DNA from: Cellulomonas hominis
Lineage (GTDB): Bacteria > Actinomycetota > Actinomycetes > Actinomycetales > Cellulomonadaceae
Length of the DNA stretch: 64,000 nucleotides
Assembly: GCF_901521055.1 (NCBI RefSeq)
Contig: NZ_CABEGA010000002.1
Coordinates: forward strand, 1-64,000
Direction of reading: 5' to 3'
This document shows, one piece after another, positions 7,502 through 25,411 of the stretch (position 1 is its first letter; each line of letters begins with the position of its first letter). A model generated the notes under the pieces. That model did no database searches and was not told where the DNA came from. It saw nothing but the letters and a program-made list of their open reading frames with translations. The position numbers and the translations under genes are program-made.

Positions 7502-8325
7502 CGGCCGGCGACCCGACGGGCGCGGGCGCGACGGTCCGCTGGCTGGGCCACGCGACGGTCGTGCTCGACGTCGGGGGCGCGCGGGTGGTCACCGACCCGC
7601 TGCTGCGCCCGCACGCGGGCCTGCTGCGCCGCCGCACCGAGCCGCCCCGCCGGGAGGACTGGTCCGGTGCGGACGCGGTGCTCGTCTCGCACCTGCACCA
7701 CGACCACGCGGAGCTCGGCTCCCTGCGGCTGCTGGAGGGCGCGCCCGTGCTCGCGGGCCGGTCGAACGCCCACTGGCTGGCGCGCCACGGCGTCCCGGGC
7801 ACGGTGGGCCTGGCCGCCGACGAGTGGTGGACGGTGCCCGGCACGGCCGTCCGGGTGCGTCCCGTGCGCGCCGACCACGGGCACCGGCCCATGCCGCACC
7901 GGCCGAACGGCACGCACGGGTTCCTGGTCGTCGCGCCGGGCATGCGGGTGTGGTTCGCCGGGGACACCGCGCCGTACCCCCAGATGCGCCGGCTCCCGGA
8001 CCTGGCGGGCGGGCCGATCGACCTGGCGCTGGTCCCGGTCGGAGGCTGGGGGCCGCGGCTGTCCGGCGGGCACATGGACGCGCACCAGGCGGCGGCGGTG
8101 TGCGAGCAGCTCGGGGTGCGGCGGGCGGTCCCCGTGCACTGGGGGACGCTGCACCCGCCGGCGTCCCGGCGCCTGCCCCCGGGGTGGATGGACCGCGCCG
8201 GACCCGCGTTCGCCCGCGCGCTCGCGCGCCGCGGGAAGGTCGAGCCGCTGCTGCTCGCCCCGGGGGAGGCCGTCCACCTGGGGGACGCCGTCGAGCGCCT
8301 GGGCGGCGCGGTCCCGGCGTCGTAG
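7498..8325 (+). CDS. MBL-fold metal-dependent hydrolase (UlaG-like)
   Basis: This 275-residue metallo-beta-lactamase fold protein has the N-terminal WLGHATVVLDVGGARVVTDPLL pattern of the COG2220/UlaG-type hydrolases. Its metal ligands lie in SHLHHDH (about residue 65), DHGHRPMPHR, FAGDTA and a late PVHWGT. Such proteins hydrolyse esters, lactones or phosphoesters, often lipid-derived. GTG 7498 overlaps the TGA of the preceding phosphodiesterase by 4 bases, which points to a shared pathway or membrane-lipid role for the pair (inference). A longer open frame upstream is only the shadow of the previous gene. Confidence 0.9.
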   Translation: MTAGDPTGAGATVRWLGHATVVLDVGGARVVTDPLLRPHAGLLRRRTEPPRREDWSGADAVLVSHLHHDHAELGSLRLLEGAPVLAGRSNAHWLARHGVPGTVGLAADEWWTVPGTAVRVRPVRADHGHRPMPHRPNGTHGFLVVAPGMRVWFAGDTAPYPQMRRLPDLAGGPIDLALVPVGGWGPRLSGGHMDAHQAAAVCEQLGVRRAVPVHWGTLHPPASRRLPPGWMDRAGPAFARALARRGKVEPLLLAPGEAVHLGDAVERLGGAVPAS

Positions 8326-8370
8326 AGGCGTCCCACGCGGGCGACGCGCCGGCGTGTCGCTGCTGCCCGG

Positions 8371-8386
8371 TCGAACATGTGTTCGG
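8371..8386 (+). promoter_or_regulatory. SOS box (LexA operator) upstream of recA
   Basis: TCGAACATGTGTTCGG matches the actinobacterial LexA consensus TCGAAC-N4-GTTCGA in all but the last base. It lies 195 bases upstream of the recA start, just before a possible -10 TAGAGT (8388-8393). It would repress the distal recA promoter until damage activates RecA and LexA is cleaved. Confidence 0.9.
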
Positions 8387-8486
8387 CTAGAGTGGTTCTC
8401 GGTGACGCGCCGCGAGGTCAAGCGCGGCCCGCGAGACGTCCACAGGTGGGGCGTCGGGTGCGGGTTGTGGACGGCTCCGGGGTGCA

Positions 8487-8508
8487 TGTCGGTGGTCGGG
8501 CATAGCGT
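8487..8508 (+). promoter_or_regulatory. proximal recA promoter of the RecA-NDp/PafBC class
   Basis: TGTCGGTG (8487-8494), then exactly eight bases, then TAGCGT (8503-8508), a full match to the TGTCRGTG-N8-TANNNT motif of LexA-independent damage promoters. In Mycobacterium tuberculosis recA also has one LexA-controlled and one such promoter. Here the same dual arrangement is visible, with an expected 5' leader of about 65 bases. Confidence 0.85.
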
Positions 8509-8580
8509 CACCGCACGACACGGAGACCAGCCCCCGCAGGCGCAGCGCGACGCTGCACGAGACGCACGAGGTGGAACATC

Positions 8581-9621
8581 ATGCCCGCTCCCCAGGACCG
8601 CGAGAAGGCCCTCGAGGCCGCCCTCAGCCAGATCGACCGTCAGTTCGGCAAGGGCTCGATCATGCGCCTCGGCGACGACGGCCGCGCCCCCGTCGAGGTC
8701 ATCCCGACCGGGTCCGTCGCCCTCGACGTCGCGCTCGGCATCGGCGGGTTGCCCCGGGGCCGCGTCGTCGAGATCTACGGCCCGGAGTCCTCCGGCAAGA
8801 CGACCGTCGCCCTGCACGCCGTGGCGAACGCCCAGCGCGCCGGTGGCATCGCCGCGTTCATCGACGCGGAGCACGCACTCGACCCCGACTACGCCAAGAA
8901 GCTCGGCGTGGACACCGACGCGCTGCTCGTGTCCCAGCCGGACACCGGTGAGCAGGCCCTCGAGATCATGGACATGCTGATCCGCTCCGGCGCGATCGAC
9001 ATCGTCGTCATCGACTCCGTCGCGGCCCTGGTGCCGAAGGCGGAGATCGAGGGCGAGATGGGCGACAGCCACGTCGGTCTCCAGGCCCGCCTCATGTCCC
9101 AGGCGCTCCGCAAGATCACCGGCGCGCTCAACGCGTCGGGCACCACCGCGATCTTCATCAACCAGCTGCGCGAGAAGATCGGTGTGTTCTTCGGCTCGCC
9201 CGAGACCACCACCGGTGGCAAGGCGCTCAAGTTCTACGCGTCGGTCCGCATGGACATCCGACGCATCGAGACGCTCAAGGAGGGCACGGACGCCGTCGGC
9301 AACCGGACCCGCGTCAAGATCGTCAAGAACAAGATGGCCCCGCCCTTCAAGCAGGCCGAGTTCGACATCCTGTACGGCGTGGGGATCTCCCGTGAGGGCG
9401 GCCTCATCGACATGGGCGTCGAGCACGGGTTCATCCGCAAGTCCGGCTCGTGGTTCACCTACGAGGGCGACCAGCTCGGCCAGGGCAAGGAGAACGCCCG
9501 CGGCTTCCTGCGGGACAACCCGGACCTGGCCGTGGAGATCGAGAAGAAGATCCTCGAGAAGCTCGGCATCGGTGCCAAGGTCGACGCGCCCGCCGGCGCG
9601 GAGGTGAAGGTCGACTTCTGA
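8581..9621 (+). CDS. recA: recombinase RecA
   Basis: This 346-residue RecA is of standard length. The Walker A motif GPESSGKTT lies at 67-75, Walker B is [12 protein letters not shown], and the DNA-binding loop regions [13 protein letters not shown] and [30 protein letters not shown] are intact. RecA forms the strand-exchange filament on single-stranded DNA and triggers LexA self-cleavage. No intein is present, unlike M. tuberculosis RecA. The ATG follows an AGGTGG ribosome binding site. Two promoters are readable upstream: a LexA-boxed one and a PafBC-type one. Its TGA shares one base with the ATG of recX, so the two are translationally coupled. Confidence 0.99.
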
Positions 9622-10820
9622 TGTCGACCGAGCACGACCCGACCGGGGACGGGCGGGGGTCCCGGGGCGCGCGGCGCTCCGGGGACCTCGTGCCGTCCCC
9701 GGCGGCGCAGCCGGACGGATCAGCCTGGGCGGTGCCGGACGCGGCGGACTCGGCGTGGGAGGTCGCGCCGGACGGCGGGCTCTCCGCGTGGGACGACTCG
9801 GCCGGGATGGGCGGCTCCGTGTGGGACGAGCCGGCCGGGGCGGGCGGCTCCGTGTGGGACGACGACGCTCCTGCTCCCGCGCCCGTCTGGGACGAGCTGC
9901 CGGCCTCCCCGCCGGAGCGCAGGCGCACGGGACGCGAGCGCAGGGACTCGGGACCGACGGCGCCCGCGCCGGTGCCGGCGCCTGCGGACGTCGCCCCAGC
10001 CCGGGAGATGTCCGAGGGCACCTCGACGGTGTCCGACTCGACGGTGTCCGGCTCGACGGTGTCCGACCAGGTCGCGGCGGTCGCCGAGCGGCTGGCCGCG
10101 ATCACCGGATCCTCGAGCAGCGCCCTGCGCGGGACGGACGACGCCGAGGACGGCCCCGTGGCGACGTCGCGGCAGCGCGGACGGTCGGCGGGACGCGGGT
10201 ACGGTGGCGGTGCGGCGCGGCGGACCGGCGGCGGCCGCCGGCGTTCCCCGGCGAGCGAGCCCCCGGAGTCGGGCGCCGCGAGCACGGACGCCGAGCCGGA
10301 CCCCGAGTCGGTGGCCCGGTCCATCGCGCTCCGTCAGCTCACCGCGGCGCCCCGCAGTCGCGCCCAGCTCGCCGAGGCGATGGCGAGGCGCGACGTCCCC
10401 GAGGACGTCGCGGACCGGGTGCTCGACCGGTTCACCGAGGTGGGGCTCGTGGACGACGTCGCGTACGCCGAGATGCTCGTCCGCAGCAGGCACGCCGAGC
10501 GCGGCCTGTCCCGCCGCGCGCTCGGGATGGAGCTGCGCCGCAAGGGCGTGGACGACGGCATCGCCCACGAGGCCCTGAGCCAGGTGGACGACGCCGACGA
10601 GGAGCAGGCCGCCCGCGCGCTCGCGCGCAAGAAGCTCCGCGCCACCCGGGGCCTCGACCGCGAGGTCCGGCTGCGGCGCGCGTACGGCGCGCTCGGCCGC
10701 AAGGGCTACGGCGGCTCGCTGGTGTCCCGCGTGGTCCGGGAGGAGCTCGCGGCGGAGGGGGCCGCGGACGACGACGCCGACGACGGAGGCGGCTGGCGGG
10801 GCCCGGGCGTCGAGGACTGA
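9621..10820 (+). CDS. recX: regulatory protein RecX with long disordered N-terminus
   Basis: RecX binds and inhibits the RecA filament. The RecX domain occupies about residues 232-395 (ALRQLTAAPRSRAQLAEAM, GLVDDVAYAEMLVRSRHAERGLSRRALGMELRRKGV, and the third helical repeat LRRAYGALGRKGYG). At 399 residues it is more than twice the length of a typical RecX (150-190). The extra 230 N-terminal residues are low-complexity Pro/Ala/Ser/Asp sequence. They carry six short Trp-centred repeats (SAWAV, SAWEV, SAWDD, SVWDE, SVWDD, PVWDE) and an STVS[DG] triplet. ATG 9621 overlaps the recA stop by one base. An upstream in-frame extension into recA is not used. Confidence 0.95.
   Translation: MSTEHDPTGDGRGSRGARRSGDLVPSPAAQPDGSAWAVPDAADSAWEVAPDGGLSAWDDSAGMGGSVWDEPAGAGGSVWDDDAPAPAPVWDELPASPPERRRTGRERRDSGPTAPAPVPAPADVAPAREMSEGTSTVSDSTVSGSTVSDQVAAVAERLAAITGSSSSALRGTDDAEDGPVATSRQRGRSAGRGYGGGAARRTGGGRRRSPASEPPESGAASTDAEPDPESVARSIALRQLTAAPRSRAQLAEAMARRDVPEDVADRVLDRFTEVGLVDDVAYAEMLVRSRHAERGLSRRALGMELRRKGVDDGIAHEALSQVDDADEEQAARALARKKLRATRGLDREVRLRRAYGALGRKGYGGSLVSRVVREELAAEGAADDDADDGGGWRGPGVED
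10023..10067 (+). repeat. three tandem 15-bp repeats within recX
   Basis: The unit TCGACGGTGTCCGAC occurs three times in a row (10023-10037, 10038-10052 with one change, 10053-10067). It encodes STVSD/STVSG repeats in the disordered N-terminal part of RecX. The near-identity at the DNA level suggests recent slippage duplication. Confidence 0.85.
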
Positions 10821-11067
10821 CCTGCGACCTCTCGCGCGGCGGCGCGCGCAGTGGCGTCACCCGGTGGCGTCACCTGGTGACCGGCCGGACCCGCCGGGAG
10901 GTCACGCTCCCCGGGACGACGTCGCCCGTGGTGAACAATGGACGTCTCGCGCCGCTGGTCACGGGTGCCGGCCGCGGCCGGTCCTGTCCCGCCGGGCGCC
11001 GCGCGAGCCCGCCGCCGCGGACCCGCCCGGCTGCCGGGCGCAGCACCACCGATCAGGAGTGTGACCC
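10821..11067. other. recX-rny intergenic region with direct repeat and palindrome
   Basis: These 247 bases contain no gene I can support. GTGGCGTCACC is repeated at 10851-10861 and 10864-10874. The second copy runs into a perfect 13-base palindrome GTCACCTGGTGAC (10869-10881). GTGAACAAT near 10931-10939 could be a weak -10 region for rny. The palindrome could be an operator; no regulator is assigned. Confidence 0.45.
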
Positions 11068-12660
11068 ATGCAGGACGTCGCGATCGTCGTCGGACTGCTC
11101 GCCGCGTGCCTGGTCGCGCTCGTCCTCGTGCTGCTCGCCCGGCGGGAGGCAGCCGCCGTCCGGCAGCAGGCGCTCGAGGACGTGCAGTCCATCCGTGACG
11201 AGGCCCGCGCCGCGCTCGTCGACGCGCAGCGCCGCGAGGCCCGCGCCGTCGAGCGGGAGGAGAACGCCGCGGTCGCCGAGCGCACCGCGACCGAGCGCGA
11301 GCGCGCCGCCCGTGCGGCCGAGGACGCCGCGGCCGAGCTCCGCCGCCGGGCCGCCGAGGAGGCCACCGCCGCGGCGGGCGCGGCCGCGGAACGGACCACG
11401 GCCGCGGAGCGCGCCGCGTCCGAGACGGTCGCCGCCGCCGAGCGTCGTGCCGCCGAGGCCGTCGCCACCGCGGAGCGCACCGCCGCCGAGCGCGTCGCCG
11501 CCGCGGACCGGGAGGCCGTCGAGCGGCTGGAGGCGACCTCGGGGCTCACCGCCGGGGAGGCCCGCGCGGAGCTCCTGCGCCAGCTCACCGCGGAGGCCAC
11601 CACCGCGGCGACGGCGTCCGTCCGCCGCATCGAGGCGCAGGCCCGCCGCACCGCCGAGGCGCGGGCGCGCCGGGTGCTCGCCACCGCGGTGCACCGGACG
11701 GCGGTCGCGACCAGCAGCCAGAGCACCGTGACGATCCTGCCGCTGCCCTCGGACGAGATGAAGGGCCGCATCATCGGTAAGGAGGGCCGCAACATCCGGC
11801 TCTTCGAGGCGCTGACCGGCGTCAACGTGCTGGTCGACGAGGCGCCCGACTCCGTGGTGCTGTCCTGCTTCGACGCCGACCGCCGGGAGGTCGCGCGGGT
11901 GGCGCTCGAGGCGTTGATGGCCGACGGGCGGATCAACCCGCAGCGGATCGAGGCGGCCTACGCGGAGGCGCTCGCCGGGGCGGACGACCGCGCCGACGAG
12001 GCCGGGCACGACGCCGCGGAGCGGGCCGGTGTGCGGGGGCTCGACGAGCAGCTCGTGCGGGTGCTCGGGCGGCTGCGGCTGCGGACGTCGTTCGGGCAGA
12101 ACGTGCTGGAGCACCTGGTGGAGTCGGCGCTGCTCGCCGCGCAGGTGGCCGCCGAGCTCGGGGCGGACGTCGAGGTCGCCCGGCGCTCCGCGCTGCTGCA
12201 CGACATCGGCAAGGCGCTCACCGGCGAGGTCCCGGGCACCCACGCGCAGGTGGGCGCCGCGCTGGCCGCCCGGCACGGGGAGTCCGCCGTGGTGGTGAAC
12301 GGCATCGCCGCGCACCATGACGAGGTCCCCGCGGAGACCGTCGAGGCGGTGCTCGTCCAGGTCGCCGACGCCATGTCCGCCGCCCGGCCCGGCGCGCGCC
12401 GGGAGGACGTCGACCAGCACGTCGAGCGGCTGGAGCAGCTCGAGGAGCTCGTCGCGGGCCACGCCGGCGTGCGGCGGGCGCTCGCGATGGCGGCGGGCCG
12501 GGAGATGCGGGTGGTCGTCGAGCCCTCGCAGGTCCCCGACACCGACCTCGGCCGGCTGGCGGTCGAGATCGCCCGGCACATCGAGCAGGACCTGTCCTAC
12601 CCGGGCGAGATCAAGGTGACGGTCGTCCGCGAGGTGCGCGCGAGCGCCACCGCGGGCTGA
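11068..12660 (+). CDS. rny: ribonuclease Y
   Basis: This 530-residue membrane-anchored endoribonuclease initiates mRNA decay. Residues 4-24 are a single transmembrane anchor. About 25-210 form a long Ala/Glu/Arg coiled coil. A KH RNA-binding domain follows with the GXXG loop GRIIGKEGRN (about 232-241), then an HD metal-binding domain with LLHDIGK and AAHHDE. The C-terminal part ends in the usual SYPGEIKVTVVRE. The ATG follows CAGGAG. The position right after recA-recX is common in actinobacteria. The coiled coil is compositionally extreme (Ala/Glu-rich) and lacks features beyond that. Confidence 0.95.
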   Translation: MQDVAIVVGLLAACLVALVLVLLARREAAAVRQQALEDVQSIRDEARAALVDAQRREARAVEREENAAVAERTATERERAARAAEDAAAELRRRAAEEATAAAGAAAERTTAAERAASETVAAAERRAAEAVATAERTAAERVAAADREAVERLEATSGLTAGEARAELLRQLTAEATTAATASVRRIEAQARRTAEARARRVLATAVHRTAVATSSQSTVTILPLPSDEMKGRIIGKEGRNIRLFEALTGVNVLVDEAPDSVVLSCFDADRREVARVALEALMADGRINPQRIEAAYAEALAGADDRADEAGHDAAERAGVRGLDEQLVRVLGRLRLRTSFGQNVLEHLVESALLAAQVAAELGADVEVARRSALLHDIGKALTGEVPGTHAQVGAALAARHGESAVVVNGIAAHHDEVPAETVEAVLVQVADAMSAARPGARREDVDQHVERLEQLEELVAGHAGVRRALAMAAGREMRVVVEPSQVPDTDLGRLAVEIARHIEQDLSYPGEIKVTVVREVRASATAG

Positions 12661-16167: not shown

Positions 16168-17766
16168 ATGAGCACGACGACCACGCCCCCCGTCCGCACC
16201 GCGCTCGACGCCCCCACGTCGACCGCGGCGGCACCCGCGCGCACCTACCTGGTCAAGACGCTCGGCTGCCAGATGAACGTGCACGACTCGGAGCACATGG
16301 CGGGCATGCTCGAGCAGGCCGGCTACGTCGCCGCGTCGCCCGAGGCGGCGGCGGCCGAGGAGGCCGACGTCATCGTCATCAACACGTGCGCGGTGCGCGA
16401 GAACGCGGCCGACAAGCTCTACGGGAACCTCGGGCGCCTGGCCGGCACGAAGCGCGCCCGCCCGGGCATGCAGATCGCCGTCGGCGGCTGCCTCGCGCAG
16501 AAGGACCGCTCGGGCATCGTCGAGCGCGCGCCCTGGGTCGACGTCGTGTTCGGGACGCACAACCTCGACGTCCTGCCGGTGCTGCTGGAGCGGGCGCGGC
16601 ACAACCGCGCGGCCGAGGTCGAGATCGAGGAGTCCCTCAAGGTCTTCCCGTCCACCCTGCCGACGCGCCGCGAGTCCGCCTACGCCGGCTGGGTGTCGAT
16701 CAGCGTCGGCTGCAACAACACCTGCACGTTCTGCATCGTCCCGCACCTGCGCGGCAAGGAGCGCGACCGGCGGCCCGGCGACGTGCTGGCGGAGGTCGCC
16801 GCGCTGGTCGACCAGGGCGCCATCGAGGTGACCCTGCTCGGCCAGAACGTGAACTCCTACGGCGTCGAGTTCGGCGACCGGGGGGCGTTCGCGAAGCTGC
16901 TGCGCGCGGCGGGCACGATCCCGGGCCTGGAGCGGCTGCGGTTCACGTCGCCGCACCCCGCGGCGTTCACGGACGACGTCATCGCCGCGATGGCCGAGAC
17001 GCCCGCCGTGATGCCGAGCCTGCACATGCCGCTGCAGTCGGGGTCCGACCGGGTGCTGCGCGCGATGCGCCGGTCCTACCGGTCGGAGAAGTTCCTCGGG
17101 ATCCTGGACCGCGTCCGCGCGGCGATGCCGGACGCCGCCATCACGACCGACATCATCGTGGGCTTCCCGGGGGAGACCGAGGAGGACTTCGCCGAGACGC
17201 TCCGGGTCGTCGAGGCCTCCCGGTTCTCGTCGGCGTTCACGTTCCAGTACTCGCCGCGCCCGGGGACGCCCGCCGCCGACCTGCCGGACCAGCTGCCCAA
17301 GGCCGTCGTCCAGGAGCGGTACGAGCGGCTGATCGCACTCCAGGACCGCATCGGGCTGGCCGAGGCCCAGCGCCAGGTGGGCCGCACCGTCGAGGTGCTG
17401 CTGGCCGAGGGCGAGGGCCGCAAGGACGGCGCGACCCGCCGGCTCTCCGGCCGCGCGGCCGACAACCGCCTGGTGCACCTGGCGCTGCCGGACGGGCTGC
17501 CGGAGGCGCCCCGGCCCGGCGACCTGGTCACCGTGGACATCACGCACGCCGCCCCGCACCACCTGGTCGCGGACTCCGCGGTGCAGGGCGGCACGTTCGC
17601 CGTGCGTCGCACCCGGGCGGGCGACGCGTGGGAGCGGGCGCAGGCTGGCGGCGACGACCACGCGCACGGCGGTGCCGGGGACGCGTGCGGCACGGGCGGT
17701 GCGACGGGCGGGCCCGCGGCGCCGGTCCTGCTCGGCCTGCCGACCATCGGCGTCGGCCCGCGCTGA
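16168..17766 (+). CDS. miaB: tRNA-2-methylthio-N6-dimethylallyladenosine synthase MiaB
   Basis: This radical-SAM methylthiotransferase adds the 2-methylthio group to i6A37 of tRNAs. The N-terminal UPF0004 domain begins [17 protein letters not shown] and carries cysteines in NTCAVRENA and VGGCLAQ for the auxiliary cluster. The radical-SAM motif is CNNTCTFC (C-x3-C-x2-C) with [14 protein letters not shown]-terminal TRAM domain follows ([26 protein letters not shown]). ATG 16168 is nine bases after TACCCT, consistent with a leaderless or near-leaderless mRNA. I reject a longer frame starting at 16060. The 532 residues include a His/Gly-rich tail of about 40 not needed for activity. MiaA, which makes its substrate, is encoded at 24.5 kb. 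Confidence 0.97.
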
Positions 17767-17795
17767 GGCGGCCCCGCCGAGCCGGAGCCCGTCGC

Positions 17796-18305
17796 TCAGA
17801 TCTGCGGCGGCAGCAGCTGGTCGAACGACGCGAAGCTCTGCACCCCGGTGCCGAGCCCGCAGGAGATCAGCTGGTCCAGCTGCTCCACGGTGACGCCGTG
17901 CTCCAGGTCGGTCGACACCTCGCTGTAGACGGCGAGCTCGCCCTCCTCCTCGCGGAGGTAGAGCTTCGGCCAGATGCGCTCGCGGTTCCAGTCGTTCAGG
18001 GCCAGCGCGACCGCGCGGCGGCTGTCGACGGGGAGCTGACGGTGCCAGCGCCCCCGGACCTGCAGGATCTCGTGCTGCTCGCCGAGCAGCAGGAACCAGA
18101 ACCGGGAGTCGTTCCAGACCCCGGTGAGGTCGCCGTCGTCGTCCACCCGGTAGTGGTAGCCGCGGGCGGACAGCAGAGCCGCGACCCGGTCGCGGGTGAG
18201 CGGGGTGGGCTTCGCCTGCGGCGGCACCTTCCGCTCGGGCTGCGCCGCGGCCGGCCGGGTCGCGAGCACGCGGGACAGCCAGCCGGGGGTGCGGGGTTCG
18301 GTCAC
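17796..18305 (-). CDS. YbjN domain protein (paralogue 1)
   Basis: This 169-residue protein carries the YbjN fold, related in shape to type III secretion chaperones. The conserved core runs from LTRDRVAALLSARGYHYRVDDDGDLTGVW to the end, with WNRERIWPKLYLREEEGELAVYSEVSTDLEHGV near residue 110-140. The first 45 residues are a Pro/Arg-rich basic extension. GTG 18305 overlaps the stop of the next YbjN gene by 4 bases, so both are in one mRNA. It is convergent with miaB. The function of actinobacterial YbjN proteins is unknown; a chaperone-like role is inference from fold and neighbours. Confidence 0.9.
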   Translation of the reverse strand: MTEPRTPGWLSRVLATRPAAAQPERKVPPQAKPTPLTRDRVAALLSARGYHYRVDDDGDLTGVWNDSRFWFLLLGEQHEILQVRGRWHRQLPVDSRRAVALALNDWNRERIWPKLYLREEEGELAVYSEVSTDLEHGVTVEQLDQLISCGLGTGVQSFASFDQLLPPQI

Positions 18306-18877
18306 GGGGCCACCGCCGCCGGGTCGGGGTACAGCTCGTCGATCGCGTCGAAGAACGTGCTGGACGTGCTGAGCCCGCAGAACAGGATCTGGCTGAGCTG
18401 CGCGTCCGTGGCGCCGTGCTCGAGGTCGGTCGACACCTCGGCGACGACGTGCACCATGCCGTTGTCCCGGACCCGCACGTACGCCTTGGGCCAGATGCGC
18501 TCGGCGTTCCACTCGGTGCAGGCGTCGAGCACCTCCTCCAGCCGCTCGATCGTGATCTCCCGGTTCCACTGCCCGCGGACCTGGAGGATCTCCTGCCGGT
18601 CGCCGAACAGGAAGAAGTAGAACAACCGGCCGCGCCACAGCCCGCCGAGGTCCCCGTCGTTGTCCACGAAGTAGTGGAAGTCGTTGCGCTCGAACCACTG
18701 CACGATCCGCTCGGGCGACAGCGGGGTGGGGCGGCCGTCGTCGACCGCGACGCCGGCGGGCTCGGGGACCGGGCGCAGCCCGCCGCGGCCGGGGTTCGGC
18801 GGCACGGGGCCCGCCTGGTTCGCGGTCGCGGGACGGTCGGGCCCGCGGCGCGGCCGGCGGTTCCGGAACAGACCCAT
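18302..18877 (-). CDS. YbjN domain protein (paralogue 2)
   Basis: This 191-residue YbjN protein has the same core as its neighbours: VQWFERNDFHYFVDNDGDLGGLW, LFGDRQEILQVRGQWNREI, WNAERIWPKAYVRVRDNG and VSTDLEHGATDAQL. I chose ATG 18877 rather than GTG 18883 because a minus-strand TAGGGT (18889-18884) sits exactly six bases upstream of this ATG, the spacing of other leaderless starts here. The N-terminal 50 residues are basic and Pro-rich. It is the first gene of a two-gene minus-strand operon and divergent from the third paralogue. Confidence 0.9.
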   Translation of the reverse strand: MGLFRNRRPRRGPDRPATANQAGPVPPNPGRGGLRPVPEPAGVAVDDGRPTPLSPERIVQWFERNDFHYFVDNDGDLGGLWRGRLFYFFLFGDRQEILQVRGQWNREITIERLEEVLDACTEWNAERIWPKAYVRVRDNGMVHVVAEVSTDLEHGATDAQLSQILFCGLSTSSTFFDAIDELYPDPAAVAP

Positions 18878-18975
18878 GCGCACACCCTACGCGCGGCGCC
18901 CGGGGGCGCCAGCGGCCCGCCGGAAGTTCACACCGGCGACGGACCCGGGGCGGCGATGACGTGCCGCGGGCGGGC

Positions 18976-18981
18976 TAGGCT
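18976..18981 (+). promoter_or_regulatory. -10 box for the YbjN3-HSP90-TPR operon
   Basis: TAGGCT at 18976-18981 lies about 90 bases before the YbjN paralogue 3 start. It is the only good -10 candidate in the 192-base gap between the divergent YbjN genes. A 5' leader of about 80 bases would result. Confidence 0.5.
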
Positions 18982-19069
18982 CGAACCACGACGGGTGCGC
19001 AGAGCCGCCACCTGCACCGACGCGAGCGCCGCGGTCCGGCTGAGGGCCGCACGACAGGACGAGGACGAG

Positions 19070-19576
19070 ATGGGCTTCTTCACCAAGCCGGACGGCGACG
19101 CGGCAGGTCCGGGGCCGCAGGCGCTGTCCCACCAGCGGATCATCGACGTGCTGGACAGCCGCGACATGCGCTACGGCGTGGACGACGACGGCGACATCGG
19201 CGGCTTCTGGGACGGCCACCTCTTCTACTTCTTCCGCATGGGCGGCAACCAGGAGTACCTCCAGGTGCGCGGCCGGTGGAACCGCCGGGTCGGCACCGAC
19301 CAGTACGCCCGCGTCGTGGACCTGGTGAACACCTGGAACTCCGAGAAGCTCTGGCCCAAGGGCTACGTGCGGGCCGAGGACGACGTCGTCGGGGTGTACG
19401 CCGAGCACACGGTGGACTACGAGCACGGCGTGACGGACGAGCAGATCGACCTGCACCTGGCGTGCGGCATCACCACCGCGCTGAGCCTGTTCGAGCACCT
19501 CGACGAGCAGTTCCCCGCCGAGGCGGCCGCGGCGAAGGCCGCCGAGGCCGCCGCCGCCGAGGACGGGTCCGCGTGA
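19070..19576 (+). CDS. YbjN domain protein (paralogue 3)
   Basis: This 168-residue protein is almost entirely YbjN domain: SHQRIIDVLDSRDMRYGVDDDGDIGGFWDGHLFYFFRMGGNQEYLQVRGRWNR, WNSEKLWPKGYVRAED and VDYEHGVTDEQIDLHL. A short Ala/Glu helix closes it (EAAAAKAAEAAAAEDG). ATG 19070 follows GAGGACGAG. It lacks the basic N-terminal extension of the two divergent paralogues. Only ten bases separate it from the HSP90 gene, so it is in one operon with HSP90 and the TPR protein. This suggests that the YbjN, HSP90 and TPR proteins work together. Confidence 0.92.
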   Translation: MGFFTKPDGDAAGPGPQALSHQRIIDVLDSRDMRYGVDDDGDIGGFWDGHLFYFFRMGGNQEYLQVRGRWNRRVGTDQYARVVDLVNTWNSEKLWPKGYVRAEDDVVGVYAEHTVDYEHGVTDEQIDLHLACGITTALSLFEHLDEQFPAEAAAAKAAEAAAAEDGSA

Positions 19577-19586
19577 CCCGGACGCG

Positions 19587-21530
19587 ATGACGGGCAGCGC
19601 CCCGCGGGCGTTCCAGGTCGACCTGCACGGCGTCGTCGACCTGCTCGCCCGGCACCTGTACTCCGGCCCGCGCGTCTACGTGCGCGAGCTGCTGCAGAAC
19701 GGCGTCGACGCGATCACCGCGCGGCGGGCGCTCGACCCGGCGTGCCCCGCCACGGTCCGGCTCCGGCCGCTCGCCGACGGGTCGCTGCTGGTCGCGGACT
19801 CCGGCGTCGGCCTCACGCGCGCCGAGGCGGAGGAGCTCCTGGCCACCGTCGGGCGCTCGTCCAAGCGCGACCTGGACCTCGGGCTCGGTCGCGAGGAGTA
19901 CCTGGGGCAGTTCGGCATCGGGCTGCTGTCGGCCTTCATGGTCGCGGACGAGATCGAGCTGGTGTCCCGGTCGGCCCGCGACCCGCACGCGCCCGCCGTC
20001 CGGTGGCGCGGGCACGCCGACGGCTCGTACGACCTGACCGAGCTGCCGGACGCCGGCCTGCCCGCGGGCAGCACCGTGCGGCTGCGCCCGCGCCGGGACA
20101 TGGAGCACTGGCTCGCGGGGGAGACGGTCGCGGCGCTCGCGGCCGAGTTCGGGTCGCTGCTGCCGGTGGACGTGGCCGTCGAGGTGCCGCTGGGCACCGT
20201 GCCGGCGGTCCCGGCCGACGACGACCCCGAGGACCTGCCCGGCGACGGCGCGCCGCGGGCCGGGCACGTCTGGCGGCGCGTGTCCGCCCCGGAACCGCCC
20301 TGGGCGCGCACGTACCCCGACGCGGCGGCCCGGGCCCGCGCGCTCGCGCAGCACTGCGAGCAGACGTTCGGGTTCACCCCGCTGGCGCACGTCGACCTGG
20401 AGGTCCCGCTCGCGGGCGTCACCGGCGTCGCGTACGTGCTGCCGGCGGCGGTCCCCCCGGGCGGCGGGGGGTCGCACCGGGTCTACCTCAAGCGGATGCT
20501 GCTCGGGGACCGCGTCGAGGGGCTGCTGCCCGAGTGGGCGTTCTTCGTGCGATGCGTGATCGACGCCTCGGGGCTGCGCCCCACCGCGTCACGTGAGCAG
20601 CTCTACACCGACGAGGTGCTGCTGGCGACGCAGGAGGCGCTCGCGGGGGCCGTCCGGTCCTGGACGCTGCGCACCCTGGAGCAGTCGACGGCGCTGGCCC
20701 AGCAGTTCGTCGCGACCCACCACCTGGCGGTCCGCTCCCTGGCGCTGACCGACGACACGATGCTCGACCTCGCCGCGCGGATCCTCCCGTTCGAGACGAC
20801 GGACGGGACGCTCACCCTCGCGGAGGTCGCGCAGGAGCACGGGCGCGTCGTCTACGCCCCCACGCTCGAGGACTACAAGCGGATCGCCCCCGTCGCGCGG
20901 GCGCAGGGCGTCGCGGTCGTCAACGCCGGGTACGTCTACGACGCCGACCTGCTCGCGCGCCTCGCCCAGCGGTCGCCCGGCGAGGTGCGGCCGCTCGGCG
21001 CCGGGGACATCGCGCAGGTGCTCGGCCCCCTCGCGCCGGAGCGGGAGCTCGCGACGCTCGACGCCGTGCGCGCGGGCGGCGACGTGCTGCGCCCGCTCGA
21101 CACCGACCTGGTGCTGCGCACGTTCGAGCCGGCGGAGCTGCCCGCGGTGCTGCTGCACGACCGGGACGGCGACCACCAGCGGGACCTGCGCGCCGCGATG
21201 GCGCAGGCCGACGACGTGTGGAGCGACGTGCTGGCCGGGTTCGCCGAGCCCGCCGCCGCCCGCCGGCTGGTCCTGAACGACGCCAGCCCGCTCGTGCGCG
21301 AGCTGCTGGCCGCCCCGCCCGGCGAGGTCTTCGCCGCGGGGCTGCGCTCGCTGTACGTGTCGGCGCTCCTGCTGGCCGGCGAGCCGCTGCGCGCGCGGGA
21401 GTCCACGCTGATGACCGGGTCGATGGCCGTGCTGCTCCGGGCGGGGCTGCAGGCAGCCACGGAGCCCGGAGAGGGCCACCGGCCCGACGACGAGACGGCC
21501 GGGGGACCGGCCGGGGAGGAGCGCGCGTGA
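19587..21530 (+). CDS. HSP90 family chaperone (divergent, HtpG-related)
   Basis: This 647-residue protein has an N-terminal GHKL ATP-binding domain with VYVRELLQNGVDAI (Asn/Asp pair of HSP90), VADSGVGLTRAEAEELLATVGRSSKRD and QFGIGLLSAFMVADEIEL. A middle domain contains YLKRMLLGDRVEGLLPEWAFFVRCVIDASGLRPTASREQLY, a recognisable HSP90 client/ATPase loop. The C-terminal half is strongly diverged from HtpG. It belongs to a class of actinobacterial HSP90-like proteins of unknown clients. The TPR gene begins inside its stop codon (4-base overlap), and TPR proteins are the classical HSP90 co-chaperones in eukaryotes. Confidence 0.92.
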   Translation: MTGSAPRAFQVDLHGVVDLLARHLYSGPRVYVRELLQNGVDAITARRALDPACPATVRLRPLADGSLLVADSGVGLTRAEAEELLATVGRSSKRDLDLGLGREEYLGQFGIGLLSAFMVADEIELVSRSARDPHAPAVRWRGHADGSYDLTELPDAGLPAGSTVRLRPRRDMEHWLAGETVAALAAEFGSLLPVDVAVEVPLGTVPAVPADDDPEDLPGDGAPRAGHVWRRVSAPEPPWARTYPDAAARARALAQHCEQTFGFTPLAHVDLEVPLAGVTGVAYVLPAAVPPGGGGSHRVYLKRMLLGDRVEGLLPEWAFFVRCVIDASGLRPTASREQLYTDEVLLATQEALAGAVRSWTLRTLEQSTALAQQFVATHHLAVRSLALTDDTMLDLAARILPFETTDGTLTLAEVAQEHGRVVYAPTLEDYKRIAPVARAQGVAVVNAGYVYDADLLARLAQRSPGEVRPLGAGDIAQVLGPLAPERELATLDAVRAGGDVLRPLDTDLVLRTFEPAELPAVLLHDRDGDHQRDLRAAMAQADDVWSDVLAGFAEPAAARRLVLNDASPLVRELLAAPPGEVFAAGLRSLYVSALLLAGEPLRARESTLMTGSMAVLLRAGLQAATEPGEGHRPDDETAGGPAGEERA

Positions 21531-23482
21531 CCCGCACGCTGGACGAGGCGAACCGCGAGATCAGCCGGGTGCGGGAGATGCCCTACGGCCTGGCCCGCAC
21601 GCAGGCCGCCGAGCGGCAGGTGCGGCTGGTCGACGCCGAGGGCCCGGACGCCGCGCGGGCCTACGCGCTGGGCACCCTGGTCGAGGCCTACCAGTGGGGC
21701 GGCGAGGTCGACCGGTCGTTCGTCGCGTTCGCCCGGCTGCTGCGCTGGTGGGACGAGCACCCCGAGCACTTCGACGCGCACGACCGGCACGGGCTGTTCT
21801 GGTCGTTCAAGTGGATGATCAGCGGCCTGGCGGACTTCCCGACCGTGCCCGCCGAGCAGATCGACCGGACGCTCGCCGACATGGAGCGCCGGTACGCCCT
21901 GGCGGGCAACGGCATGGACGCGGTGGCGTACGAGCGGTTCGCGTGGGCCCGCCGGCGCGGCGTGGCCGACGCCGAGGCTGCCTACCAGGTGTGGATCGCC
22001 ACCCCGCGCGACGACTTCTCGCAGTGCGAGGCGTGCGACCCGGGGGACCGCGCAGCGTGGCTCCTGGCCACCGACCGCACCGAGGAGGGCATCCGGCTGA
22101 TCGAGCGGACCCTCGAGCAGAACCCGTCCTGCGCGTCCGAGCCCGCCGACATGCTGTCGTACCTCGCGGAGGCCTACCTCGACGCCGGCCGCCCGCAGGA
22201 CGCCACCCGCACGCACCGCCGCGCCGTGGCCGCGCTCGCCGAGGCCCAGTCCGACATGGTGGGCGCGCGCGGCCGGCGGGTCCGGCTGCTGGCGCGCGGC
22301 GGCCAGGTCGACCGGGCGCTGCGGGCCGTCGAGGCCGACCAGCAGTACCTCACCGGCGGGGACACGCCGTACTCGCGGCTGGCCTACGCGCGGCTGGTCG
22401 GCGCGGCGACCCACGTGCTGCGTCCCGAGCACGGCGGCCGGCCGGTCCGGCTGACGTCGGTCCCGGCGGCCACGGTCGCGGAGCTCGACGACTGGCTGCA
22501 CGCCCAGGCCGACGCCCTCGCGCCGCAGTTCGACGCCCGCAACGGCACCGCGGTCGAGAGCGAGGCCGTCGCGCGGGCGTGGCGGACCGAGCCAGCCGCG
22601 CACGTGCTGGACCTTGACGTGCTGCCCCGCGGGCTGACGTCCGGACCCGGTGCAGTGGGCCGGCCCGCGGGCGCCGTGCCGACGGGGCCGACGGGGCCGT
22701 CCGAGCCCGCGGGGCCGGCGGGCGCCGCGGAGCTGCTCGCGGCCGCCGAGCGGCTGTCGGCCTCGGGCGACACGGAGTCGGCGGCGGGCGCGTACCTGGA
22801 GGCGGCGGCCGCCGCCGAGTCGGCCGGCCTGCTGGTCGAGGCCGGGTTCGCCTACGCCGAGGCCGCGCACTGCGCGCAGGTGCTCGGCGACGACGACGGC
22901 GCGGCGTCGGGGTACGCCGCCGCGGTCGCGTACCTGCACGCCGGCGGCCTGGCACCGGACCTCGTCGTCCCGGTCGTGGTCGCCTGGGCCCGCGCGGCTG
23001 CCGTGACGGGGGAGTCCGAGCGCGTCCTCGCCGAGGCCGACCGGCTGGCGGCGTCGCTCGCCGACCCGGCCGACGCCGTCGACCCGGCGGAGCGGGCACC
23101 GGAGCTCGTGGCCCGGGACGAGGCCGCCCGGCGCCGCGCCGTCGCGGACCTGGACGACGCCGCCGCCCGGCTGCTGGCGACGCTCGGCGGGCCCGACCGG
23201 TCCGCGGCCGCCGCGGTGCGCGCGCAGCAGGCGGCCGAGGCGTACGCCGGGCTCGGGGCGCTCGCGGACGCGGCGCACGCGTTCTGGCTCGCGGGGCGGC
23301 TGCACGACGACCTCGGCCACGTCGAGGAGGCGGTCTGGCACCTGGAGTCCGCGATGGAGGGGTTCCAGGCCGCACGGCGGCGCGGCCCGCACGGGGAGGT
23401 CGCGAACGCTCTGGTCGACGTCCTGCGCCGCACGGGCCAGACCGCCCGCGCCGACGACCTGGCCCGCACCCTCACGTCCTGA
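21527..23482 (+). CDS. tetratricopeptide-repeat protein paired with HSP90
   Basis: This 651-residue soluble helical-repeat protein has TPR-like units, clearest at about residues 185-245 (GIRLIERTLEQNPSCASEPADMLSYLAEAYLDAGRPQDATRTHRRAV). More units follow in the C-terminal half after a Pro/Gly/Thr linker near 385-400 (repeated GP[TS] words). There is a CEAC pair near residue 167. No signal peptide or membrane segment is visible. GTG 21527 overlaps the HSP90 stop by 4 bases. A role as HSP90 partner is inferred from coupling and domain type. A perfect long palindrome follows the gene and may end the transcript. Confidence 0.9.
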   Translation: MTRTLDEANREISRVREMPYGLARTQAAERQVRLVDAEGPDAARAYALGTLVEAYQWGGEVDRSFVAFARLLRWWDEHPEHFDAHDRHGLFWSFKWMISGLADFPTVPAEQIDRTLADMERRYALAGNGMDAVAYERFAWARRRGVADAEAAYQVWIATPRDDFSQCEACDPGDRAAWLLATDRTEEGIRLIERTLEQNPSCASEPADMLSYLAEAYLDAGRPQDATRTHRRAVAALAEAQSDMVGARGRRVRLLARGGQVDRALRAVEADQQYLTGGDTPYSRLAYARLVGAATHVLRPEHGGRPVRLTSVPAATVAELDDWLHAQADALAPQFDARNGTAVESEAVARAWRTEPAAHVLDLDVLPRGLTSGPGAVGRPAGAVPTGPTGPSEPAGPAGAAELLAAAERLSASGDTESAAGAYLEAAAAAESAGLLVEAGFAYAEAAHCAQVLGDDDGAASGYAAAVAYLHAGGLAPDLVVPVVVAWARAAAVTGESERVLAEADRLAASLADPADAVDPAERAPELVARDEAARRRAVADLDDAAARLLATLGGPDRSAAAAVRAQQAAEAYAGLGALADAAHAFWLAGRLHDDLGHVEEAVWHLESAMEGFQAARRRGPHGEVANALVDVLRRTGQTARADDLARTLTS

Positions 23483-23684
23483 CGGGAGGCACCGCGGTGC
23501 GCCCGGGCGCCGTCGTCGCTCCCGGGAGAGCCGCCGGAGTGCCCCCGACGCGCCCGCCGGTCGCCGAGATGACAGTTCTCGCCTGTCGGCGTGGGGCGGC
23601 CCGCAGGCGGTCGCTGTCATCTCGGCGAGGGGTGCGAGGCGTGCGGGCACGGGTGACGCGGTCCGGGCGGGATACCGTCGGGGG
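23483..23684. other. intergenic region with extended palindrome
   Basis: No gene is visible in these 202 bases. The region holds the 68-base palindromic element described separately and, at its right end, the -10 box TACCGT (23673-23678) of the next gene. Confidence 0.6.
23561..23628. repeat. 68-base interrupted palindrome
   Basis: Perfect 15-base arms (TCGCCGAGATGACAG at 23561-23575 and its reverse complement at 23614-23628) enclose a second inverted pair, CGCCTG (23580-23585) and CAGGCG (23604-23609), which extends the stem. It lies after the TPR gene. It may be a terminator, a dispersed intergenic palindrome or a processed RNA element. No T-run follows. Confidence 0.85.
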
Positions 23685-24458
23685 GTGCGTGCGGCCGTGG
23701 TGTTCCTGCCCGACACGGCCCTGCTCGTGCGCGGGGCCGCCGGCCGCGCCGACCCCGGCGCCGGGCTGCGCGACGCGGCTGTCGCGGCGCTGCGGGCGTC
23801 GGCACCCCAGCCCGGAGGGCGGGTCGTGGTGGTCGCGCCCGGGGGGCGTGCTCGGGTGCTGACCCACCCCGTCGGGCCCGGGCTCGGCGCCGCCGGGCTG
23901 CGGCTGCCGGAGGACGGACGCCCGGCCGCCGAGCCGTCCCGCCGTGCGGACGTGCCGGCGTCGGTCGCCCTCGTGCTGCTGGACGAGGCCGGGATCGACG
24001 CCCCGGTGGCCGTGCACGAGATCCCGCGGGCCGATCCTCCGGCGGCCGGGACGCTGCGCGCGCTCGGCGCCGGCATCGCGGCGGACCTGGTCGTGGTGGT
24101 CGGCTCCCCGAGCGCCCGGCACGGGGCGGAGGCCCCGCTCGCCGAGGACCCGCACGCGGCCGACGTCGACGCCGCGCTCGCCGCGGGCCTCGAGGCGGGC
24201 CCGTCCGCGCTCGACGCCGTGCTGACCGCCCTGGGGCCCGCCGGCGCCGCCGGGCTCGCGGTGAGCGGCTGGGCGCCGTGGCAGGTGGCGCTCGGCCTCG
24301 TCGGGTCCGCGCCCGTGCTGGTCGCCGCGCACACCGCCGCGGTCGTGGCCGGCGCACCGCACGTCGTCGCCGCCTGGCACGCCGTCGCCGCGGGGCACGC
24401 CACGGCCCCGACCACCCCCGCACCCCCCGCACCCCCCGCACCCGAGGAGCCCCGTTGA
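23685..24458 (+). CDS. class III extradiol dioxygenase subunit B-like protein
   Basis: This 257-residue protein begins RAAVVFLPDTALLVRGAAG and has the alternating strand/helix pattern of the LigB-like superfamily members found immediately upstream of miaA in many actinobacteria. The iron-ligand histidines expected of active extradiol dioxygenases are not obvious at the N-terminus, so enzymatic activity is doubtful. GTG 23685 stands six bases after TACCGT (23673-23678), a leaderless arrangement. Its stop overlaps the TTG start of miaA by 3 bases. The C-terminus is a Pro/Ala repeat (APPAPPAPEE). The function is unknown; the family call rests on position and pattern. Confidence 0.75.
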   Translation: MRAAVVFLPDTALLVRGAAGRADPGAGLRDAAVAALRASAPQPGGRVVVVAPGGRARVLTHPVGPGLGAAGLRLPEDGRPAAEPSRRADVPASVALVLLDEAGIDAPVAVHEIPRADPPAAGTLRALGAGIAADLVVVVGSPSARHGAEAPLAEDPHAADVDAALAAGLEAGPSALDAVLTALGPAGAAGLAVSGWAPWQVALGLVGSAPVLVAAHTAAVVAGAPHVVAAWHAVAAGHATAPTTPAPPAPPAPEEPR

Positions 24459-25411
24459 CCGTCGTCGTCGCCGTGGTCGGCCCGACCGCGACCGGCAAGT
24501 CCGACCTGGGCGTGGCGCTCGCGGAGCAGCTCGGCGGCGAGGTGGTCAACGCCGACGCCTTGCAGCTGTACCGCGGCATGGACGTCGGCACCGCCAAGCT
24601 GACCCCGGCCGAGCGTCGCGGGATCCCGCACCACCTGCTCGACGTGCTCGACCCCCACGAGGACGCGACCGTCGCCGGTTACCAGCAGGAGGCCCGCGCG
24701 GCGGTCGCGGGGATCGCGGCCCGGGGACGCCGGCCCGTGGTCGTCGGGGGCTCGGGGCTGTACGTGCGGGCGTTGCTCGACCGGATCGACTTCCCGGGCA
24801 CGGACCCCGCGGTGCGGGCGGAGCTGGAGGCCCGCGTCGAGGCGGAGGGCTCGCGCGCGCTGCACGCGGAGCTGGCCCGGCTCGACCCGGTCGCCGCCGA
24901 GGGCATCGGCCCGCGCAACGCGCGGCGGGTGGTCCGGGCCCTGGAGGTCATCGCGCTGACGGGCCGGCCGTACTCGGCGAACCTGCCCGGGCACGACTAC
25001 GTGCGGCCGACGGTTCAGATCGGTCTCGACTGCGACCGGGCCGTCCTCGACGAGCGCGTGCAGGCCCGCGTGGACCGCATGTGGTCGGCGGGGCTGGTCG
25101 ACGAGGTGCGCGGCCTGCTCGGGCGCGGCATCGGCCGCACGGCGTCGCGCGCCGTCGGGTACGCCGAGGTGCTGGCGGCGCTGCGGGGCGAGATCACCGA
25201 GGACGAGGCCCGCGCGCAGGTCGTCGCGGGGACGCGCCGGCTCGCGCGCAAGCAGATGGGCTGGTTCGGCCGCGACCCGCGCGTGCACTGGCTGGACTCG
25301 CGCGACCCGGACCTGGTGGCCCGCGCGCTGGACCTGGTCGCCGCGGCGGACGCGGGCGACCTCGGACCGGCCACGGACGACCCGGCCCCGCGCCGTAGTC
25401 TGGGGTCATGA
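24455..25411 (+). CDS. miaA: tRNA dimethylallyltransferase MiaA
   Basis: This 318-residue enzyme transfers the dimethylallyl group to A37 of tRNAs, providing the substrate of MiaB. The P-loop is GPTATGKS (about 9-16). Other family motifs are NADALQLYRGMDVGTAKL, HHLLDVLDPHEDATVAGYQ, VVVGGSGLYVRALLD and RLARKQMGWF. The start is the rare TTG at 24455, overlapping the previous stop and immediately giving the conserved TVVVAVVGPTATGKS. It is coupled by a 4-base overlap to dapF. Confidence 0.97.
   Translation: MTVVVAVVGPTATGKSDLGVALAEQLGGEVVNADALQLYRGMDVGTAKLTPAERRGIPHHLLDVLDPHEDATVAGYQQEARAAVAGIAARGRRPVVVGGSGLYVRALLDRIDFPGTDPAVRAELEARVEAEGSRALHAELARLDPVAAEGIGPRNARRVVRALEVIALTGRPYSANLPGHDYVRPTVQIGLDCDRAVLDERVQARVDRMWSAGLVDEVRGLLGRGIGRTASRAVGYAEVLAALRGEITEDEARAQVVAGTRRLARKQMGWFGRDPRVHWLDSRDPDLVARALDLVAAADAGDLGPATDDPAPRRSLGS

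Follow-up and report, generated by a model that had tools for sequence, protein, structure and literature searches.

The window analysed here is a stretch of 64,000 nucleotides from Cellulomonas hominis (assembly GCF_901521055.1, contig NZ_CABEGA010000002.1, positions 1 to 64,000), the host genome of which is 4.07 Mb in size. Between miaB and miaA it carries three genes for YbjN proteins (YbjN-A, YbjN-B and YbjN-C), a gene for a divergent HSP90 and a gene for a protein with a tetratricopeptide repeat (TPR) fold (Table 1). The YbjN-C, HSP90 and TPR genes form a tight plus-strand operon, with a gap of 10 bases between the first two and an overlap of 4 bases between the last two, as had been proposed in an earlier reading of the DNA made from its letters alone (the sequence-only reading). 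The five gene calls of that reading were upheld; its grouping of all five as one chaperone island was not. The HSP90 and TPR genes were found to be a conserved pair, the TPR gene being the regular neighbour of this class of HSP90.

Table 1. Features at the HSP90-TPR locus (positions are those of the window)
Feature	Position	Strand	Evidence
miaB	ends 17766		
YbjN-A, one of the divergent pair; backbone neighbour, outside the HSP90 unit	17796-18305	-	PF10722 103.3 bits; retained without HSP90
YbjN-B, one of the divergent pair; backbone neighbour, outside the HSP90 unit	18302-18877	-	PF10722 97.8 bits; retained without HSP90
YbjN-C, operon gene 1	19070-19576	+	PF10722 99.5 bits; clade C
HSP90, PRK14083 class, 647 residues, full N-M-C architecture	19587-21530	+	NF010683 732 bits
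Ribosome-binding site of the TPR gene in the last HSP90 codons (GGGGAGGAG, encodes G-E-E), then the overlapping GTG start	21513-21529	+	
TPR partner protein, 651 residues	21527-23482	+	
TPR gene, codons for Cys167 and Cys170 (C-x2-C motif)	22025-22036	+	invariant columns, 44 aligned cores
TPR gene, codon for Cys202, the third cysteine	22130-22132	+	invariant column, 44 aligned cores
orf24	23685-24458	+	conserved reading frame before miaA in relatives, after TPR or YbjN-C
miaA	24455-25411		

The HSP90 matched NF010683 (PRK14083) with 732.3 bits over residues 6-625, against a cut-off of 455, and is thus a member of that class. The canonical HtpG model NF003555, of the same superfamily, aligned with it over the full length at 146.1 bits, below the cut-off of 371, and the description of the protein as divergent was therefore justified. 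A search of the genome for HtpG returned a best match of 139.9 bits and none above the cut-off, so that the PRK14083-class gene is the sole HSP90 found there. The AlphaFold2 (AF2) model of the protein had a predicted local distance difference test score (pLDDT) of 86.1 and a predicted template-modelling score (pTM) of 0.78, and its best structure matches were TRAP1 and Hsc82 at a template-modelling score (TM) of ~ 0.6. Residues E34, N38, D71, G75 and R336 were among the invariant columns of a 40-row alignment that included five canonical-type HSP90s; E34, N38, D71 and R336 we take to have catalytic or nucleotide-site roles. The nucleotide-site residues and the modelled N-M-C fold place the protein in the ATP-dependent chaperone superfamily, with a predicted chaperone activity. 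The PRK14083 class probably corresponds to Hsp90C, or HTPG Group C, as judged from the two HSP90 types in Streptomyces and from its presence in Firmicutes, both of which fit Group C. The class was previously known from sequence alone.

The co-occurrence of the two genes was scored in samples of 121 genomes from the family, 297 from the order and 198 from the phylum. Because the genomes are related, the samples share members and the number of candidates scored per genome was limited (17, 7 and 10), counts are given without a probability. At family level, the HSP90 was above the cut-off in 45 of the 121 genomes, and the TPR core was present in the identical 45 genomes by name and in none of the other 76. 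The HSP90 search gave matches of some kind (E <= 0.001) in 99 genomes; those in the remaining 54 comprised one canonical-like match (G266, 148 bits), the rest being short or weak (at most 43 bits). The corresponding TPR search gave 47 genomes at E <= 0.001, and two matches of ~ 20 bits were discarded. At order level, with the HSP90 above the cut-off in 48 genomes and the TPR protein at E <= 1e-20 in 49, both were present in 45 genomes, the HSP90 only in 3, the TPR protein only in 4, and neither in 245. The phylum sample contained seven genomes with the HSP90 above the cut-off, and strong TPR matches were obtained in those seven and in one further genome (G171), after 12 others, whose matches did not exceed 26 bits, had been discarded. 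The co-occurrence check that the sequence-only reading had set for itself was thus passed by HSP90 and TPR, which share 45 of the 121 genomes at family level and 45 of the 48 HSP90-positive genomes of the order.

Gene order was regular as well. Class loci, defined by an HSP90 profile score above 300 bits and counted with duplicates, numbered 143; in 132 of the 140 that extended at least 600 bp beyond the HSP90 gene, the TPR gene came next on the same strand. A further 29 HSP90-like loci fell outside the class, and unlike the PRK14083 loci none of the 26 with room downstream had such a TPR gene next; note that the profile used detects this cysteine-containing TPR (Cys-TPR) family only. Clustering at 97% HSP90 identity reduced 150 loci to 111, of which eight had no TPR match above 100 bits in the stretch covered. 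Five of the eight were limited by that stretch (three short ones from the genus in which the Cys-core begins 1.2-1.4 kb downstream, and the contig ends L144 and L147). The other three were L176, a Pseudanabaena plasmid (L180) and L143, where the neighbouring match reached 53 bits. In 35 diverse, hand-picked loci the TPR family was the sole neighbour family found at all 35, opposite-strand shadow reading frames aside; a YbjN cluster was present at 14 and the next family at 7. The HSP90 and TPR trees were compared for 102 non-redundant pairs and gave a mirror-tree r of 0.95, a value reached in 0 of 999 permutations. Of 68 supported HSP90 splits, 52 were also present in the TPR tree and 8 were contradicted by supported TPR splits. 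The HSP90 and TPR genes are a conserved pair, linked well beyond chance.

The TPR protein itself lies below every Pfam, NCBIfam and PADLOC cut-off: the best Pfam TPR model was TPR_12, at 16.9 bits against a cut-off of 30.1, and NCBIfam gave no match. The AF2 model (mean pLDDT 94.6) is a helical-repeat superhelix, and together with structure comparison it vindicates the name TPR as a description of the fold. The protein can be divided into an N-lobe (residues 1-351), which is the conserved core, a linker (~ 352-396) and a C-lobe (397-650) with a TPR superhelix. Foldseek comparison of the whole model returned generic repeats, with a best TM of 0.28-0.32 by query length among the matches listed; no HSP90 co-chaperone was among those matches or among the ones listed in the structure comparison just named, which does not prove that there is none. 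The core contains the motif C-x2-C-x31-C. An alignment of 44 cores, spanning Cellulomonas to Listeria and thus Actinomycetota to Bacillota, had Cys167, Cys170, Cys202 and Pro206 as its sole invariant columns, and C-x2-C-x(22-45)-C was present in 139/139 homologues above 100 bits (duplicates included) and in 102/102 non-redundant ones. The AF2 model places the cysteines in two turns directly preceding helices 170-181 and 205-219.

Several variant loci of the Cys-TPR gene were seen. The TPR match is divided over two reading frames in L107 (11893-14483) and L142 (9005-10995), and these two genes are possibly broken or wrongly sequenced. Additional Cys-TPR copies, besides the HSP90-adjoining one, are present on contig 255 of G198 and contig 347 of G223. 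In L200, from G171, a Cys-TPR homologue of 204 bits (6801-10013, minus strand) has no detectable HSP90 adjoining it; an overlapping upstream reading frame of 479 residues (10010-11449, minus strand), with no Pfam match, sits in the HSP90 position.

The pair was also found beyond Actinomycetota. In Listeria, an HSP90 with 799 bits to NF010683 precedes two N-lobe homologues in tandem, which match the TPR core with 165 and 149 bits, and in Paenibacillus an HSP90 precedes one (161 bits). These proteins comprise little more than the N-lobe, which is therefore regarded as the core. A diverged arrangement was present in Salmonella, Pseudomonas, E. coli and Xanthomonas records (L208, L209, L211 and L182). 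In the Pseudomonas, Xanthomonas and Salmonella records a distant HSP90, with 277-293 bits to NF010683 and 185-195 bits to HtpG and so under both cut-offs, is followed directly by a protein of 764-774 residues; the E. coli chromosome with the same arrangement is one of 2 matching genomes among 5426 of that species. Profile comparison of the gammaproteobacterial protein (three sequences) with the TPR core gave a probability of 90% and an E value of 1.6e-6. The CxxC motifs align, and CxxC is conserved in the three aligned sequences; the third cysteine is unmatched. A relative in Nonomuraea was without the CxxC, and no HSP90 match was found within 4 kb on either side of it. On the Pseudanabaena plasmid (L180, 5213-10795), the HSP90-like protein has 877 residues and a C-terminal extension with a TIR-like match under the cut-off; its gene adjoins an annotated TIR-domain gene, and a different TPR gene lies further on.

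In eukaryotes, HSP90 works with TPR co-chaperones such as Hop, CHIP, FKBP51/52 and PP5, and the classical case is defined by docking to the EEVD tail of the chaperone. The likeness that the sequence-only reading had drawn to these co-chaperones stands in so far as the partners are of the two kinds known there, an HSP90 and a TPR solenoid. It fails for docking through an EEVD-type tail, which was not seen; the present pair also differs in its overlapping bacterial operon and its three-cysteine N-lobe. Many HSP90s of the class do carry acidic ends (EENR, QEDV, GEERA) after a variable linker, and these could in principle be bound by a TPR carboxylate clamp as EEVD is. However, the EE or QE pairs are encoded by a GGAG-type ribosome-binding site directly before the overlapping TPR start codon, and non-overlapping gene pairs, for example at L044, L069, L128, L131 and the Listeria locus L177, are without the motif. 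The most likely reading of the acidic tails is the ribosome-binding site embedded for the TPR gene, and eukaryote-like docking appears extremely improbable. Three other non-overlapping pairs (L077, L089 and L110) have acidic ends all the same, with no common motif. An EEVD-like tail is not supported, there being no C-terminal peptide common to the class.

All three YbjN proteins exceed the PF10722 cut-off of 22 and are the only PF10722 matches in the genome, so the three paralogues named by the sequence-only reading are genuine. They belong to the family of AmyR, DR1245 and E. coli YbjN; unlike these, clade C, described below, occurs in an operon with HSP90. That the triplet, the HSP90 and the TPR gene form a single chaperone island inserted between miaB and miaA would fit their joint presence in the window and in several close relatives, but five relatives without the HSP90 and TPR genes retain miaB, YbjN-A (minus), YbjN-B (minus), YbjN-C (plus), orf24 (plus), miaA (plus), dapF (plus) and hflX (plus). 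Four of these belong to the window's genus (G238, G217, G254 and G280; L193-L196) and one to another genus of the family (G235; L205). In L194, orf24 and the YbjN-C match (38% identical) are in swapped order, as judged by best matches, and in L193, L195 and L196 the distance from miaB to YbjN-A is 1.5-5 kb. The variable unit is therefore HSP90 plus TPR, and the YbjN genes are backbone there. YbjN was moreover present in 114 of the 121 family genomes irrespective of HSP90, and HSP90 and TPR are paired elsewhere, in Streptomyces, Kribbella and Listeria loci, with no YbjN adjoining the HSP90. The single island is very improbable, and the YbjN triplet with HSP90 as one unit was rejected on account of the HSP90-less genomes and the YbjN clades.

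The 96 rows of the YbjN tree fell into three groups. Clade C, with 46 rows and a support of 97/85, held all 37 YbjN rows located before an HSP90; its remainder consisted of three rows after a TPR gene, five from HSP90-less genomes and one second YbjN beside the operon one (L172). Groups A (weakly supported, 89/36) and B had 25 rows each and no operon rows. Note that the loci were mostly collected through HSP90, which biases the operon count of clade C. By hand count, at least three YbjN genes were present in 31/45 HSP90-positive and 18/76 HSP90-negative family genomes. The YbjN-C-HSP90-TPR block is located apart from miaB and miaA in C. iranensis, C. persica and their relatives, and in Oerskovia (L111), Cellulosimicrobium (L123) and G222 it is inverted as a whole. 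The link between YbjN and HSP90 thus holds for YbjN-C and fails for YbjN-A and YbjN-B. YbjN-C, found before HSP90 in some lineages and not in Streptomyces, Kribbella or Listeria, is a real but lineage-limited operon partner, and its membership, alone of the three, in the HSP90 unit is plausible.

One interpretation of these data, to which we assign a probability of about 0.6, is that the operon encodes a dedicated HSP90 machine in which the TPR protein serves as co-chaperone or adaptor and YbjN-C as an accessory. The HSP90 would run an ATP-driven open-close cycle, and its regular partner would be the product of the overlapping TPR gene, with the N-lobe as the putative HSP90-binding part. The three-cysteine site of the N-lobe may act as a metal or redox switch. 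The C-lobe, which is absent in the Bacillota proteins seen, could recruit clients through its TPR groove, and YbjN-C may be an accessory small chaperone in some actinobacterial lineages.

A number of observations weigh against this interpretation. In the order, three genomes have the HSP90 without the TPR protein (G558, G450 and G449) and four the reverse (G332, G480, G509 and G529), G509 having a 132-bit HSP90 match near its TPR gene; G171 in the phylum sample likewise has the TPR protein without the HSP90. Six of the eight adjacency misses come from one genus, in which the Cys-core begins 1.2-1.4 kb downstream and the stretch before it gives a weak C-lobe match. In another (L148) the TPR gene lies 1.9 kb downstream, and there is none within 9 kb downstream of L176, which is a second HSP90 copy. 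The 53-bit TPR homologue of Glycomyces (L143) is without the cysteines. No fourth invariant metal ligand was found in the 44 aligned cores, so that zinc, an iron-sulphur centre and a redox switch are all possible for the cysteine site. The congruence of the trees reflects common descent as well as partnership. Finally, the fold of the C-lobe is like that of general peptide-binding TPRs, and the TPR protein may on that account be a client or sensor.

It could accordingly be that the HSP90 is the private chaperone of a TPR sensor or regulator, which depends on it for folding or holding and itself does the real work. However, the TPR protein is rarely found without the HSP90 (0/76 HSP90-negative family genomes, and 4/249 genomes of the order under the HSP90 cut-off), and the pairing and its strict order are retained across phyla; this rarity and order fit a helper at least as well. 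A client or effector role is regarded as unlikely, though it retains appreciable weight.

A role in conflict, for example against phage, with the HSP90 as switch and the TPR protein as sensor or scaffold, was weighed on the strength of the patchy distribution within genera (HSP90 in 6/10 sampled genomes of the window's genus), the TIR-domain gene annotated beside the distant Pseudanabaena HSP90 and occurrence on plasmids. The neighbours of the Cellulomonas and Listeria loci are, however, ordinary chromosomal or housekeeping genes, and no effector gene was common to the 35 diverse loci. PADLOC-DB 2.0.0 gave only partial ATPase-domain matches for the HSP90 (best 26.4 bits, TmtA) and none for the other five proteins scanned. 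Close relatives in phage collections were limited to records of doubtful origin, and the Listeria HSP90 had no match in viral contigs. A conflict system is considered distinctly improbable, and the preferred interpretation is still the dedicated HSP90 machine.

Around the operon, orf24 matched nothing in Pfam or NCBIfam at E <= 0.1. An inverted repeat 3' of the TPR gene (23563-23626) consists of GCCGAGATGACAG and its complement face to face; this 13-mer has 8 exact copies in the genome and its reversed control 0, and the element looks like a dispersed repeat. With up to 3 mismatches allowed, the window showed no CIRCE-like or HAIR-like heat-shock operator. No sigma-70-like promoter was found in 17700-24500, a result of little weight for a high-GC actinobacterium.

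One of the two Listeria TPR genes is probably lmo0941. In the excerpt of PMC6901971 the lmo0941 product is a hypothetical protein of unknown function. The excerpts of Chen 2006 on HTPG Group C (PMC1525184) contain no mention of TPR or tetratricopeptide, and those of Press 2013 (PMC3708813) none of TPR; the latter state that no obligate bacterial Hsp90 co-chaperones have been identified, hsp90B and hsp90C being left out of that study. Hop, Aha1 and p23 are given as without apparent orthologues in eubacteria in an excerpt of PMC8082187, and excerpts of a review (PMC11687934) mention no bacterial co-chaperone. HSP90 and YbjN do not occur in the text of a study of chaperone-based conflict systems (PMC7159879). 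Searches of the open-licence PMC literature listed no description of the HSP90-TPR pair, and a full-text search there for YbjN, HSP90 and actinobacteria returned no paper. The dedicated pairing and the Cys-TPR family appear to be new, their component parts being of known kinds.

That a bacterial Hsp90 here has, for the first time, a dedicated and near-obligate co-chaperone, with a three-cysteine metal or redox switch, retained by the PRK14083/Hsp90C lineage over Actinomycetota, Bacillota and, in diverged form, Gammaproteobacteria, and with YbjN added as a client-handling chaperone in some actinobacteria, is a proposition at roughly even odds. If it is true, the HSP90-TPR partnership would not be a eukaryotic invention, and its docking mode would be other than EEVD. 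Bacteria were thought to be without a dedicated HSP90 helper, and the TPR partner is a strong candidate for that role; the near-constant partner gene provides a concrete protein with which the question of bacterial HSP90 helpers can be tested. A first function would likewise be assigned to genes for 'hypothetical proteins' in Listeria, Pseudomonas, Salmonella, E. coli and Streptomyces records.

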